Virus record (IMG/VR): IMGVR_UViG_3300042484_001840
Location: 62,001-126,000 of that record
Direction: 5' to 3' (one strand)
DNA length: 64,000 nt
Source: a virus
Of the stretch, positions 15,778 through 41,968 are shown in pieces. The notes under the pieces are model-generated. The model ran no database searches. It saw only the letters and a program-made list of their open reading frames with translations, and was not told the DNA's origin. The stretch's first letter is position 1; each line of letters opens with the position of its first letter. The position numbers were made by a program, and so were the translations under genes.

Positions 15778-15810
15778 TTATCCACAAAGTTATCCACAGA
15801 CTTATTCACA
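15778..15810. other. DnaA-box mini-cluster
   Basis: TTATCCACA at 15778 and 15790 and TTATTCACA at 15802, all same orientation with 12-bp periodicity. Confidence 0.75.
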
Positions 15811-15958
15811 GGCAAAAAATAGGGGGTCATCCGCCACCGTACGAAAAAGAGACACACAGTCCCGTACCCCAAATCGGGGAGCGGGGCTATCAACCTTCAT
15901 GACAAATTCTGTCAATACTTGCAAGCATTAGCCCCGCAACCGAACTAATGTTCGTAGC

Positions 15959-16324
15959 ATGATCAACCAGAATAAGTGGACAACCCACATCACAGCACTC
16001 CGCTCATATGCGGAACGAACAGGAACTACGCGAGTCCCGCGGACTCATGTAGAAAATACAGAAACAGGTGAAGTGCGCCTCGGCGCTTGGGTGTCGTATG
16101 TTCGTCACCGCCAGCGCAAGGGACACTTGTCAGTTGTGCAGATTCAGGAACTTGCAACACTCCCGAATTGGCACTACGAACCACTGCCCGCAGGACGGAC
16201 AGGCGACTCTGCCCGTGACGCTCTCATTCAAGCACGGTCTGAAGATGGCGCACGAGTCCGTGAACTCTCACAAGAGTTTGGTCTTACTCGTCAGCGGATT
16301 CATCAAATTATTTCAGCCAAGTGA
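15959..16324 (+). CDS. Helicase-associated (HA) domain plus sigma-r4-type HTH protein
   Basis: 121 residues. N-terminal half matches the HA domain (W..HI.AL..YAERTG..RVP..H...GE.RLG.WVSYVR.R...G.L...Q...L..LP.W.Y.P). The C-terminal 35 residues (VRELSQEFGLTRQRIHQII) are a sigma-70 region-4-like HTH. Probably a DNA-binding regulator. Coupled to the TM gene that follows by a GTGA overlap. Confidence 0.72.
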   Translation: MINQNKWTTHITALRSYAERTGTTRVPRTHVENTETGEVRLGAWVSYVRHRQRKGHLSVVQIQELATLPNWHYEPLPAGRTGDSARDALIQARSEDGARVRELSQEFGLTRQRIHQIISAK

Positions 16325-20298: not shown

Positions 20299-20330
20299 TT
20301 ATCCACAGGCTGGGGATAACCTGTGGATAA
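20299..20330. other. DnaA-box mini-cluster
   Basis: TTATCCACA at 20299 and inverted TGTGGATAA at 20322, facing each other. Confidence 0.7.
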
Positions 20331-21479: not shown

Positions 21480-21523
21480 TGTGGATAACCTTTTCCACAG
21501 CCTGTGGATAACCCTGTGGATAA
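21480..21523. other. DnaA-box mini-cluster
   Basis: TGTGGATAA at 21480, 21503 and 21515 plus TTTTCCACA at 21491, four boxes in 44 bp. Confidence 0.75.
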
Positions 21524-28351: not shown

Positions 28352-28380
28352 AGTATACACCTTGGGTGTAGCACTTACAC
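28352..28380 (-). promoter_or_regulatory. Shared-class promoter (28314 gene)
   Basis: GTGTAA (28375-28380), 17-bp spacer with CTACACCC, TATACT (28352-28357). Confidence 0.76.
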
Positions 28381-28654
28381 CATTATTCGTGTTACAGAAT
28401 GGTTACAGATTTATGACGGAAATGTAATGGAGAGCCAAAATGCCGATATGGGCAATGTGTCACCATTACACGCTAGAACGCCCCCTAAGCGCCTGACCCC
28501 CCTCTCCGCCCCTAGCACCCAATCCTGAGCCTGAAACGGCTGAGAGACGATTTCCACAGATTTATACACAGCCTCTGAGCAGGGGAAATGTGGCAAAACC
28601 CCAGCGTGAGGGCACTTTTTGCATAACCCCTGCTAGTGGGCTTACACACGGTGG

Positions 28655-28950
28655 TTATCCACAGAAGTGACCACTTACCACCAGATTTCACCAGTAGTTA
28701 TCCACAGGGGTGTGTATAAAGTTGGGGATAAGGTTATCCACAGGATATCCACAGGGTGTGGATAAAGTAGTTGTACTGTGCAAGTAAGTTATCCACAGGG
28801 GGTGTGGATAAAGGTGTGGATAAAGTTTTCCACAGGGTGTGGATAAACCTGTGGAAAAGATAGTTGTAGTCTACAAGTAAGTTTTCCACAGGATGGGGAT
28901 AAAGTTGTGGATAAAGTTATCAACAGGGCTGTGGATAAAGTTGTGGATAA
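28655..28950. other. DnaA-box array (13 boxes), candidate origin
   Basis: TTATCCACA at 28655, 28698, 28734, 28789; TGTGGATAA at 28757, 28803, 28815, 28838, 28906, 28930, 28942; TTTTCCACA at 28826 and 28882; TGTGGAAAA at 28850; plus near matches ATATCCACA and TTATCAACA. This is the high-affinity host DnaA consensus in both orientations. Confidence 0.82.
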
Positions 28951-29060
28951 CTTTTTGCTCTGTAAAAAATTCTCTTCCGCCACCGTCAAAGTTTTAGAAA
29001 CGAGGGGGCGGGGCTAGTCCCCTACTAACAAGAATTGAAAAATCTGAACTTATAAAAAAA

Positions 29061-29111
29061 AGCATTAGCCCCGTTTGTTTTTTCAAGAAGCATTAGCCCC
29101 GTTTGTTTTTT
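29061..29111. repeat. 23-bp direct repeat, two copies
   Basis: Copies at 29061-29083 and 29089-29111, each AGCATTAGCCCCG then TTTGTTTTTT. They contain the CGGGGCT motif followed by a T-run, like a one-arm terminator. Confidence 0.8.
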
Positions 29112-29114
29112 GAG

Positions 29115-29147
29115 TTTTCCACAGGTTTTTCCACAGGCTGTGGATAA
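29115..29147. other. DnaA-box mini-cluster
   Basis: TTTTCCACA at 29115 and 29127, TGTGGATAA at 29139; 12-bp period as at 15778. Confidence 0.75.
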
Positions 29148-29410: not shown

Positions 29411-29439
29411 AGTATAGCAGACTTGTGTAACCATTACAA
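29411..29439 (-). promoter_or_regulatory. Shared-class promoter (29377 gene)
   Basis: TTGTAA (29434-29439), 17-bp spacer with TTACAC, TATACT (29411-29416). Confidence 0.8.
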
Positions 29440-30373: not shown

Positions 30374-30541
30374 TCAGAACCGAGGTAGTTGGCTTAGGAC
30401 ATAATCCTCGGCACGGGTGATGTACTTAGCCGTAACAGCGCCTCGTGCTTTTCTATAAGCGAGGTCATAGATACGGTCAGCAACTTCAAAGCCATGCTTA
30501 CGGATAAGAGCCTCGTAAAGTTCATTTTCTGAGAATGTCAT
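30374..30541 (-). CDS. Small helical protein, family P (55 aa)
   Basis: ATG 30541 after ACTAAGGAGAAAATA. ELYEALIRKHGFEVADRIYD and LAYRKARGAVTAKYITRAED match the pattern of 25359-25541 and 27375-27554. Function unknown. Confidence 0.66.
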   Translation of the reverse strand: MTFSENELYEALIRKHGFEVADRIYDLAYRKARGAVTAKYITRAEDYVLSQLPRF

Positions 30542-30603: not shown

Positions 30604-30636
30604 CCATACGGTGTGTCTCTTGTCACACTACCTAAC

Positions 30637-30772
30637 CGAACAGGTGTTCGCACGGAGACACCGAACAAGTGTTCCCCGAACGGGTGTTCGTACCGAACAA
30701 GTGTTCGCTTGATAAAAATACGCACCGACGCATAAAAATACACCGAACAGGTGTTCTACGAACAGGTGTTCG
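30637..30772. promoter_or_regulatory. Array of six SOS-box-like palindromes (CGAAC-N4-GTTCG)
   Basis: 14-bp sites start at 30637, 30662, 30677, 30694, 30744 and 30759; four are perfect and two have one end base changed. Two sites abut TTGATA (30709) and TTGACA (30774) -35-like hexamers. CGAAC-N4-GTTCG is the LexA box of actinobacteria and Bacillus. It fills the 316-bp gap before the SNF2 helicase gene. Confidence 0.82.
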
Positions 30773-30858
30773 CTTGACAAATGTAGCCACATTACGGAGG
30801 GAATGTGGACACAATAAAAGCACAGAACTAGAACCGATAGCCCCGCTAGACTAAAGAT

Positions 30859-32766
30859 ATGAATGGGCAACTAATACTAGGAACGGACACGCTTGTTGCC
30901 GTGTTCCCGTACGATAAGGCGCAAGTTGCGCGGATCAGAACCATACGCGGGGCTGTATGGGACAACGCATCTAAAACATGGCGGATACCCCTTACTCAAT
31001 TCTCCAAGGCAACAGAATTGGCGTTGGAACTCGGCTGGTGGATTAGCCCCGAAGTAGCAATGCTGAACATACCCAGTGAACCCGTGGACATGATGACGGT
31101 GAACAGCAAAACCGTGAGGCTTTCGTTCTCGTTTGACCCAGTAAAAGTGCGTGCGGTTAAGCGGATACCAGGCATAACTTGGGACAAAAAGACGGCATCG
31201 TGGGAAGCCCCGCTCTCGTCACTATCGGAATGTGCTGACTGGGCGAAGCAGTTTGACATGGAAGTAAGCGAAGATACGCAGACGCAAATATCAGAAATAA
31301 CCGAAACCAGGTCAAAACTGATTGAGCAGTCAAGGCAAACCGATGCTGACCTTGAAGTGGCGGGACTACCACTGCTTCCGTACCAAAGAGCGGGCGTGAA
31401 GTACGCTGCTGAGGCACGCAGATGCTTCATTGCTGACGACATGGGACTTGGTAAAACACTCCAAGCAATCGCAACTCTTGAGTATGTTATGGATAGTTAC
31501 CCCGCAGTTGTTGTCTGCCCACCCACGCTGGTACTGAACTGGAAGAACGAGTACAACAAGTGGCTACCAGGTAGAAATGTTGTCACGGTGAAGAACCGAA
31601 GCGAATTCCCAGACGGGGCTTATGATGTTGTCGTTGTTGGTTACTCAAACATCAACGCATGGGCGAACAAACTCCAAAAGCACCGAAGTTATGTGTTTGA
31701 CGAGTCGCATTACTGCAAAAGTGCTGATGCGCAGCGCACGAAGGCTGCCATCAAGATGGCGAAGTCGGCACCGAAAGAAGGAATTGTTCTTTGTTTGACT
31801 GGTACGCCCGTAACCAACCGCCCCGCTGAATACGCCCCGCAGTTGGACATGCTTGGAAAACTTTCTGATTTTGGTGGCAAATGGGGCTTTTACCGACGAT
31901 ATTGCGCGGCTTTCCGAGACAGATTTGGGCAATGGAACATCTCAGGCAACTCCAACTTGGAAGAACTCAACGACAGACTCCGAGGAAACTGTTATATCCG
32001 AAGAACTAAGGACCAGGTACTGGAAGAACTCCCACCCGTGCGTCACAACACGATCCTGATTGAAGGAACTGATGCGGGGCTGAAGGAGTATCGCAAGGCG
32101 GAAAACGACATCGTAAAATATCTAATGGAGCGTGCACGGCAAATCGCTGAAGAACTTGGTGAATCACCGAACTCCGCTGCTGTGCGAGCAAAAATGAGGG
32201 CAGAACGGAACGAACATTTGATTCGCATCGGCGTTCTTCGGAAGTTAGCCGCTAAAGCGAAGATGCCCGCTGTTATTGAATGGGTTGATGGGCGCATTGA
32301 AGCGGGGCAAAAGGTGGTTATCGCCGCTCACCACCGTGAAATCGTTGATGAACTTGCTCAGAAGTATGGGAACATAAAGATTCAGGGAGGCATGGATGTC
32401 AATGATGTGGAAGCAAACAAGAAGATGTTTCAAGAGAAAAGTGTCACAGAAAGCCCCGTTATCGTTCTTTCCATCCAAGCAGCGAAAACAGGTCACACGC
32501 TGACCGCTTCTCAAGATGTTCTCTTCGTGGAACTTCCATGGACACCGAGCGATGTGGATCAAACTTACTCAAGATGCCACCGACTGGGACAAAAGGGCAG
32601 TGTAACAGCAACTTATCTGCTTTGTCAAGGAACTGTTGATGAAAAAATCTACGATGTCATTGAGCAGAAGCGTGGAGTTGTGAACGCTGCGACTGAAGGA
32701 ACCGAAGTGAGCGGGGCTGGTGGAGAATTGTTTGACCATTACCTCCAACTGTCAATGAAATACTGA
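30859..32766 (+). CDS. SNF2-family (SMARCAL1-like) DNA helicase/translocase
   Basis: 635 residues. Walker A DDMGLGKT (193-200), DESH box, LTGTPVTNRP (motif III), and QTYSRCHRLGQKGSV (motif VI) identify a complete SNF2 ATPase. The first 135 residues hold two tandem copies of a beta/alpha unit (13-60 and 87-133, each F.xD...V..I/..I.G..WD.....W..PL) like HARP-type domains of annealing helicases. Suited to fork restart or recombination. SOS-type array upstream suggests DNA-damage control. Confidence 0.92.
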   Translation: MNGQLILGTDTLVAVFPYDKAQVARIRTIRGAVWDNASKTWRIPLTQFSKATELALELGWWISPEVAMLNIPSEPVDMMTVNSKTVRLSFSFDPVKVRAVKRIPGITWDKKTASWEAPLSSLSECADWAKQFDMEVSEDTQTQISEITETRSKLIEQSRQTDADLEVAGLPLLPYQRAGVKYAAEARRCFIADDMGLGKTLQAIATLEYVMDSYPAVVVCPPTLVLNWKNEYNKWLPGRNVVTVKNRSEFPDGAYDVVVVGYSNINAWANKLQKHRSYVFDESHYCKSADAQRTKAAIKMAKSAPKEGIVLCLTGTPVTNRPAEYAPQLDMLGKLSDFGGKWGFYRRYCAAFRDRFGQWNISGNSNLEELNDRLRGNCYIRRTKDQVLEELPPVRHNTILIEGTDAGLKEYRKAENDIVKYLMERARQIAEELGESPNSAAVRAKMRAERNEHLIRIGVLRKLAAKAKMPAVIEWVDGRIEAGQKVVIAAHHREIVDELAQKYGNIKIQGGMDVNDVEANKKMFQEKSVTESPVIVLSIQAAKTGHTLTASQDVLFVELPWTPSDVDQTYSRCHRLGQKGSVTATYLLCQGTVDEKIYDVIEQKRGVVNAATEGTEVSGAGGELFDHYLQLSMKY

Positions 32767-34078: not shown

Positions 34079-35107
34079 ATGGCACATGAACTAGAAATGA
34101 AGGCAGACGGAACAGCGAAGTTCGCTTATTCGCTCAAGGGCGGTATCCCGTGGCATCGCCTCGGAGTCCCGCTTGAAGGTTTACAGACAGTAGACGCAAT
34201 GCTCAAAGCATCGGAAGCCGACTACGAAGTAAAACTCACCAAAGTGGCGGCAGTTGATGATGATGGCAACTTCATTCTTGATGGCAATGGAAAGCCGATC
34301 ATTATTGAAGATACCCGTGCCACTATCCGAGACAACGGAGATGGAACGCTTGACGCACTTTCTTCAGTTGGAACTCGCTATGTGGTCAAACAGAACAGGG
34401 AAGTAGCAGAACGCGCGCTCGCAGTAGTCGGGGCTTCTGAGGGAGAGGCAGTTGTTGACACCGCTGGCGTTCTTCAGAACGGAAAGCGTTTCTTCATGAC
34501 GCTTGACTTAGGATCACTCATCATTGATCCGATGGGTGTGAATGACAAGATCGCTCGCTATCTCGTTGTATCCACGGGACATGACGGAGTGTGGCCAGTT
34601 CGCTACGCAAATACCGACATTCGTGCTGTTTGTAACAATACTGTTCGCCTTGGAATCAAGGAAGCAGAACGAGTGTTCGTGGCACGACATACAAAGAACA
34701 TGGACTCAGCGTTTGACGATGCGAAGGAAGTCTTGCGCATCAGCGTTGACTGGGCGAAGAACTTCAAGGTCATGGCAGAAGAGATGCTGTCTATCGCAGT
34801 CCCGAAAGATTCAGGCAAGGTGGACAAGGTTCTCAACCGAGTCTTCCCCATCAAGAAAGATGAGACGGATCGCCAACGAACGAATCGTGAACGCACCAAC
34901 ATGATTATCCGTTCACTCTACGAATCGGACAAGAACGCTGGTGGTTTCGGACATAACGGCTGGAGTATGTACAACGCCATTGGCGAATACCTTGACCATC
35001 ACCGAGACGCAGAGTTAGATGAGCGAGCATTTGCTTCACTTGACGACAACTCATGGGTGACACGCATCAAGTTGGAAACCCAGCAGGCTGTTCTTTCACT
35101 AGTCTGA
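34079..35107 (+). CDS. DUF932 phage/plasmid-like protein
   Basis: 342 residues. Typical DUF932 features: PWHRLGVPL near the N-terminus, SVGTRYVVKQNREV, a GKRFFMTLDLG strand, NTDIRAVCNNTVRLG, and C-terminal NMDSAFDDAKEVLRIS helices. Abundant on large phages and plasmids; thought to bind nucleic acid but unproven. Single-gene unit with own promoter and terminator. Confidence 0.9.
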   Translation: MAHELEMKADGTAKFAYSLKGGIPWHRLGVPLEGLQTVDAMLKASEADYEVKLTKVAAVDDDGNFILDGNGKPIIIEDTRATIRDNGDGTLDALSSVGTRYVVKQNREVAERALAVVGASEGEAVVDTAGVLQNGKRFFMTLDLGSLIIDPMGVNDKIARYLVVSTGHDGVWPVRYANTDIRAVCNNTVRLGIKEAERVFVARHTKNMDSAFDDAKEVLRISVDWAKNFKVMAEEMLSIAVPKDSGKVDKVLNRVFPIKKDETDRQRTNRERTNMIIRSLYESDKNAGGFGHNGWSMYNAIGEYLDHHRDAELDERAFASLDDNSWVTRIKLETQQAVLSLV

Positions 35108-35843: not shown

Positions 35844-36305
35844 ATGTCAGCATCACCGACAACACTTACAGGAAACCTTGTTTCAGATCCCGAACTCAAG
35901 TTCTTGGATAATGGAACAGCGAAACTATCAGGCTCAATTGCCGTTGGTCACTATTGGACTGACGCATCGGGCGAAAAGCAAGAAAAGACTTCATTCATTG
36001 ACTTCGTTGCTTGGCGTTACCTTGCCGACGACGCAGCACGAGTGTTGGAAAAGGGCGTTCGTATCATTGTTACGGGTCGCCTTGAACAGCGTTCGTGGGA
36101 ACAAGACGGGGCTAAGCGAAGCAAGGTTGAACTTATCGCTGACGACATCGCAGTCGCAGTGAAGTCAATTGAGTCGTTTGACCGTCGCCGTGCTGGTGAA
36201 AAGGGTGCTGTTGCGCCGAAGCCAGCCGCTGCTAGGCAGGCACAACGCCCTGTACTTAAGGCGACACCAACGCAATCCGTAATGGAAGATGCCGAGCCAT
36301 TCTGA
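35844..36305 (+). CDS. ssb: Single-stranded DNA-binding protein
   Basis: 153 residues from ATG 35844 (GAGGAG RBS). OB-fold typical of SSB: TLTGNLVSDPELKFLDNG, then FIDFVAWRYLADDAARVLEKG and IIVTGRLEQRSWEQDG. A disordered Ala/Pro linker leads to the acidic tip EDAEPF, the protein-interaction tail (like DDDIPF). Coats single-stranded DNA at replication forks. Confidence 0.95.
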   Translation: MSASPTTLTGNLVSDPELKFLDNGTAKLSGSIAVGHYWTDASGEKQEKTSFIDFVAWRYLADDAARVLEKGVRIIVTGRLEQRSWEQDGAKRSKVELIADDIAVAVKSIESFDRRRAGEKGAVAPKPAAARQAQRPVLKATPTQSVMEDAEPF

Positions 36306-39745: not shown

Positions 39746-39778
39746 TTATCCACAGGCTGTTGATAAACCTGTGGATAA
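39746..39778. other. DnaA-box mini-cluster
   Basis: TTATCCACA at 39746 and TGTGGATAA at 39770, with a one-mismatch box between them. Confidence 0.7.
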
Positions 39779-41701: not shown

Positions 41702-41805
41702 CCTTTATCAAAAGAAATATTTATTATAGTTATGTGACATAATCAACAACTATCATAACAATAATGATTACATATATAGCAATTACATATCAGTTATACA
41801 CAACC

Positions 41806-41968
41806 TGTGGATAAGGTGTGGATAACTTTGTACACAGGCTGTGGGTAACGCTGTGGATAACGATGAGTGCTGTGGATAATGCTGTGTATAACCTGTGTAT
41901 AACCTGTGGATAAAGCGAGGCATCAACTGTGGATAACTAGCACCATCTGTGGACAAAGATGTGGATAA
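41806..41968. other. Second DnaA-box array (7 exact plus variants)
   Basis: TGTGGATAA at 41806, 41817, 41852, 41871, 41905, 41928, 41960 and TGTGTATAA at 41883 and 41894, nearly all in one orientation, unlike the mixed array at 28.7 kb. Confidence 0.82.

Follow-up and report, generated by a model that had tools for sequence, protein, structure and literature searches.

Tandem LexA-type boxes in phages that lack detectable lysogeny genes

An array of LexA-type boxes in a viral genome

Six tandem palindromes of the form CGAAC-N4-GTTC(G) were found in a 64-kb stretch of viral DNA (the window, as we call the whole stretch that was analysed), packed into 136 bp (30637 to 30772) between a small leftward gene and a gene for a SNF2-type DNA helicase. 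We assign a probability of roughly 0.5 to the reading that these boxes are operators for the LexA protein of the host in a phage that is apparently free of lysogeny genes, making LexA-dependent both the divergent region in which they lie and a distant gene for a small DNA-binding protein (HA-HTH).

The boxes start at 30637, 30662, 30677, 30694, 30744, and 30759, which confirms the positions given in an earlier note on this DNA. Four of them are perfect, as that note had said, while those at 30662 and 30744 are short of the final G only. With at most one mismatch allowed, 9 matches occur in the window, where shuffles give 1.65 ± 1.22; since the highest count in any shuffled window was 5 and 9 was never reached, a chance origin of the array was ruled out. 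Three of the 9 matches lie outside the array, namely a perfect and intergenic one at 15941, one at 34666 in a DUF932 gene, and one at 35891 in an SSB gene. Boxes within RuvC-like, DUF932, and SSB genes were not used as support, as coding constraint is possible there. Perfect matches in the whole 145-kb record number 5, made up of the 4 in the array and the one at 15941. The array is directly flanked by 2 other elements: a CRP-like palindrome, GTGTGTCTCTTGTCACAC, immediately upstream (30611 to 30628), and AATGTAGCCACATT immediately downstream (30780 to 30793), of which a close relative, L007, has a second copy.

The window belongs to a virus record of 145,042 bp, the ends of which repeat over approximately 11.3 kb, so that it is apparently complete and comprises 133.7 kb of unique sequence. 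Its genes include those for a terminase, a portal protein, a primase-helicase, ThyX, a ribonucleotide reductase, and a VanY-type lysin. Judged by terminase, portal, and helicase, most of its nearest cultured relatives are actinophages (approximately 31% to 43% amino-acid identity), and the host is probably an actinobacterium. No match to the LexA DNA-binding domain (PF01726) or to S24 peptidase (PF00717) was found anywhere in the record, including the part beyond the window, where the earlier note had proposed to look for a phage LexA-like gene. Likewise, no genes for a tyrosine integrase, a serine integrase/recombinase, or a ParA-type ATPase were detected in the record; a plasmid-like state of such a phage is possible.

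The boxes fit the Gram-positive LexA consensus

The published LexA consensus of Gram-positive bacteria is CGAACRnRYGTTYC (PMC2248561). The array boxes match this consensus, including at bases that were not used for their retrieval, and all 6 fit CGAACRNRYGTTC. Among 279 boxes sampled from 93 non-redundant viral arrays, the N4 spacer starts with R in 95% and ends with Y in 98%, of which only the R end is free of search bias. Both the motif and this N4 preference are shared by unrelated phages that range in GC content from 0.32 to 0.69 and differ in gene content, and this argues for a conserved host protein as the binder. As no LexA-like gene was found in the phage record, the host LexA is the expected candidate. 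Judging from this fit, the boxes are of the LexA type, as proposed earlier, and very probably are bound by the LexA of the host.

Arrays recur among phages and are rare in bacterial genomes

A two-box pattern was found in at least 119 IMG/VR stretches, against 3 for the same pattern reversed as a control, and a three-box pattern in 11. Copy number ranges from 2 to 8 boxes across the 93 non-redundant viral regions. Across 16 further records with arrays, the count of perfect boxes was 77, as against 2 for reversed controls, and tyrosine integrases, S24 peptidases, and serine recombinases were detected in none of these 16. The genes beside the array differ among phages, and no single gene is tied to it. 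Arrays were mildly enriched in divergent regions (16 of 48 versus 88 of 478, p = 0.02) and not depleted in convergent ones, a placement test that carries little weight because the gene calls spanned only 53% of the DNA.

Among 84,980 bacterial and archaeal genomes, counted as species, the three-box pattern was found in just 12 stretches, none of them labelled actinobacterial, which bears out the view that 6 boxes is an extreme number. Of these 12 LexA-like arrays, 5 (L139, L142, L143, L144, and L149) belong to just 2 Elusimicrobia genomes (MAGs).

The array and the neighboring helicase gene

The helicase gene (30859 to 32766, plus strand; 635 aa; PF00176, E = 2.3e-27; phrog_62, DNA helicase) starts 86 bp past the end of the array. 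The small divergent gene on the other side (30374 to 30541, minus strand) has no assigned function and gave no match in Pfam or PHROGs. The earlier note had pointed to 2 −35-like hexamers abutting the boxes and had suggested tight damage control of the helicase. Both hexamers are present (TTGATA, 30709 to 30714; TTGACA, 30774 to 30779), but neither is conserved in L007, the closest relative, with a helicase that is 99% identical, where they read ATTATA and TTGACG. L007 carries 8 boxes, the 2 extra ones having been added as units of approximately 15 bp. Between L007 and the window, the array and the leftward promoter region differ very little, whereas the stretch from the array to the helicase has diverged. 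The only conserved −10-like element in that stretch is TAGACT (30847 to 30852, plus strand), 6 bases 5′ of the helicase ATG and approximately 75 bp beyond the array, which suggests that the helicase is expressed from a leaderless promoter, with TAGACT as its candidate −10.

In more distant relatives, arrays were found further from the helicase gene, at 2.6 kb upstream in L042 (helicase 65% identical) and 5.5 kb upstream in L008 (59%). No boxes were present in the 1.4 kb upstream of the helicase gene in L005 (80%) or in the 420 bp upstream in L010 (55%). Damage control of the helicase in particular is weakened by the distant or missing arrays, the loss of the −35-like hexamers, and the distance to the conserved −10-like element, and these sequence comparisons argue against the array being a fixed promoter of this gene. 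In Skysandviruses and in GTE5, a box is present 26 bp ahead of the helicase; it was set aside, as it lies inside an overlapping WhiB reading frame, where coding constraint is possible.

A conserved lone box at the start of a putative regulator gene

The sole perfect box of this phage outside the array, CGAACTAATGTTCG (15941 to 15954), ends 4 bp ahead of the start codon of a gene for a small DNA-binding protein that combines an HA domain with an HTH resembling sigma-70 region 4 (15959 to 16324, plus strand; PF03457, E = 1.7e-13). In L165, the homologue has an additional match to Sigma70_r4 (E = 1e-5). The box is identical at 14 of 14 positions in L166 and in L165, even though the noncoding flanks of the latter no longer align, and L092 has 2 boxes at the start of the same gene; this putative operator is conserved in 3 lineages. 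A LexA block at the HA-HTH start would follow a textbook pattern, so that of the individual steps proposed for this genome, the one with the best support is that LexA controls a phage regulator, with the HA-HTH gene as the candidate.

Arrays in cultured Gordonia phages

A direct BLAST search with the array gave no match among named phages. Cultured carriers were found through contigs L127 and L130, and 2 array contigs were identified as Emianna and Lollipop1437, both phages of Gordonia terrae. Within the Emilbogenvirinae (Foxborovirus, Skysandvirus, and Gruunavirus), each of the 11 genomes inspected has 3 or 4 boxes grouped in a single divergent intergenic region, which is approximately 200 to 600 bp long and lies a few kilobases from the helicase. 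The distance from the array to the leftward gene is near-constant within each genus, and copy number is fixed within genera as well. When 6 Skysandvirus genomes were aligned, 1 of 40 columns in the box arms was variable, versus 9 of 26 in the N4 and spacer positions (p = 0.0006); with GTE5 added, these counts became 4 of 40 and 16 of 26 (p = 1.6e-5). On these alignments, the conservation of the arms has the character of a binding-site footprint. No obvious core promoter was found within the Gordonia phage arrays.

DnaA-box islands near the array

The window also contains 29 perfect DnaA boxes (TTATCCACA), where 0.45 would be expected, whereas the remaining 70 kb of unique sequence has only about 2 more. 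They form 6 clusters. The main island (28562 to 29147) shares the divergent boundary of the array and contains 2 AT-rich direct repeats, and a second island lies at 41794 to 41968. Smaller clusters were found at 15778 to 15810, near the lone LexA-type box, and at 20299 to 20330, 21480 to 21523, and 39746 to 39778. These islands may represent an origin of replication or a sink for DnaA.

How the array may act

If the boxes are host LexA operators, LexA dimers would sit centrally within the divergent intergenic region, ahead of the replication genes. The level of free LexA would then set the expression of the replication region and, via the operator at 15941, of the HA-HTH regulator. Cleavage of LexA during the SOS response would open the divergent region, and so might the accumulation of many phage copies, with approximately 7 sites each, which would dilute LexA and give the phage a form of self-relief. 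That LexA binds the boxes, that it thereby acts on transcription, and that copy number plays a part is what we infer from the DNA sequence. The operator reading draws on the fit to the consensus, the conservation of the arms, the recurrence in unrelated phages, the lack of a detected phage LexA or S24 protein, and, by analogy, the precedent of phage GIL01, in which host LexA acts on tandem boxes (PMC6182141). Against it, the array is not linked to any one gene across phages, and self-repression brings no obvious benefit to a lytic phage. Nor does the array overlap a clear core promoter, either in the Gordonia phages or in the window, whose −35-like hexamers lack conservation, so that a simple steric mode of repression by the array finds no support.

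The same lack of promoter overlap would fit a second explanation, raised in the earlier note as well, which we consider possible though doubtful, namely that the array mainly soaks up LexA as phage copies rise and thereby switches on the host SOS response, with repair enzymes, nucleotide supply, and division arrest as outputs, while the DnaA islands would likewise stop the initiation of host replication. A sponge of this kind would agree with the range of 2 to 8 copies among phages, the difference between 6 and 8 boxes in near-identical relatives, the presence of arrays beside different genes, the near absence of three-box arrays from bacterial genomes, and the excess of DnaA boxes in the window. 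However, few sites per genome are available when infection starts, the geometry and copy number that are fixed within genera of the Gordonia phages are operator-like, and the one conserved box at the HA-HTH start cannot act as a sponge. The conserved HA-HTH operator and the fixed Gordonia geometry place regulation somewhat ahead, while the missing promoter overlap, shifting array location, and varying copy number favor titration; both may operate together. A broader and slightly more speculative idea is that virulent-looking phages carry islands of dense, evolvable sites that strip host master regulators off the chromosome as the phage DNA is amplified, without the need for an anti-regulator protein. 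Such sites would be those for LexA in the array and for DnaA nearby and, elsewhere among phages, the CRP-like or TTAGG-N4-CCTAA palindromes.

It is improbable that the LexA and DnaA boxes at the divergent boundary work together as an initiation module, in which LexA would modulate initiation at a replication origin. The main DnaA island lies 1.5 to 2 kb from the array with its AT-rich repeats at a divergent gene boundary, and DnaA-type boxes directly adjoin LexA arrays in L008, L042, L151, L091, and L069. Yet only 14 of the 93 arrays have TTATCCACA in their vicinity, for which reason DnaA boxes were rejected as a partner of the arrays in general, and the Gordonia loci contain essentially no DnaA-type boxes. 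Six separate clusters in 64 kb are also unlike a single origin, and the local change in GC skew is no more than weak. Least probable is the suggestion, made in the earlier note, of operators for a phage-encoded repressor, which would share the LexA motif by coincidence. Palindromes clustered in a divergent region do resemble phage operators, and the phage encodes small HTH proteins, but neither the record nor the 16 other array-carrying records showed a LexA or S24 domain, and the same motif and N4 preference in unrelated phages of such different GC content again argue for a conserved host protein.

Relation to known systems

The use of host LexA by phages is already known; it is the multi-box array form that appears to be new. 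In CTX-type phages, in coliphage 186 (tum), and in colicin genes, host LexA boxes control genes of the element. These are temperate or plasmid elements with one or two boxes at a promoter, unlike the array described here. On the E. coli chromosome, the datA locus titrates DnaA through dense DnaA boxes. The islands reported here are similarly dense but differ from datA in being phage-borne, in occurring as several clusters, and in having LexA boxes nearby.

The temperate Bacillus tectivirus GIL01 uses host LexA as its lytic switch, with tandem LexA boxes in the phage promoters (PMC6182141). These boxes overlap mapped promoters, and GIL01 encodes gp7 and the LexA homologue gp6 (PMC6182141). Our phage resembles GIL01 in its tandem LexA-type boxes and in the apparent lack of a dedicated phage repressor, with LexA binding shown for GIL01 and predicted here. 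It differs in its 6 to 8 boxes, the lack of detected lysogeny genes, and the lack of a clear promoter overlap, and profile searches with PF01726 and PF00717 gave no counterpart of gp6 in the phage record. The lexA promoters of Firmicutes contain 1 to 3 boxes each (PMC2248561); host SOS promoters such as those of lexA and recA share the consensus, whereas the phage array has 6 to 8 boxes spaced approximately 15 bp apart. No earlier report of such arrays (3 to 8 boxes in phages with no lysogeny genes detected) was found in the open-access literature, with most subscription journals outside the scope of this search.

Host LexA was previously known to silence some temperate phages and mobile elements. 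The presence of multi-box arrays in many phages with no detected lysogeny genes, cultured Gordonia phages among them, suggests that lytic phages, too, read or manipulate the SOS repressor of their host. The cultured carriers Skysand, Emianna, and GTE5, which grow on Gordonia terrae, make the role of phage DNA as a regulator sink testable.

Other recurrent motifs

Several other repeated motifs were observed. TAGCCCCG/CGGGGCTA occurs in 25 copies in the window (10239 to 41996), several of them as inverted pairs, versus 2.4 expected for the whole genome, and is absent from the other large pieces of the record. Palindromes of the type TGTAA-N3-TTACA recur upstream of leftward genes (for example at 28365, 29411 to 29439, and 15740), where they overlap promoters resembling TTGTAA-N17-TATACT and are possibly operators of a phage-specific regulator. 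Finally, 12 TTAGG-N4-CCTAA palindromes were found in 9 of the 93 array regions (L023, L025, L051, L061, L063, L068, L069, L098, and L129), versus 1 in 913 kb of background, making this palindrome a candidate regulator site near LexA arrays.
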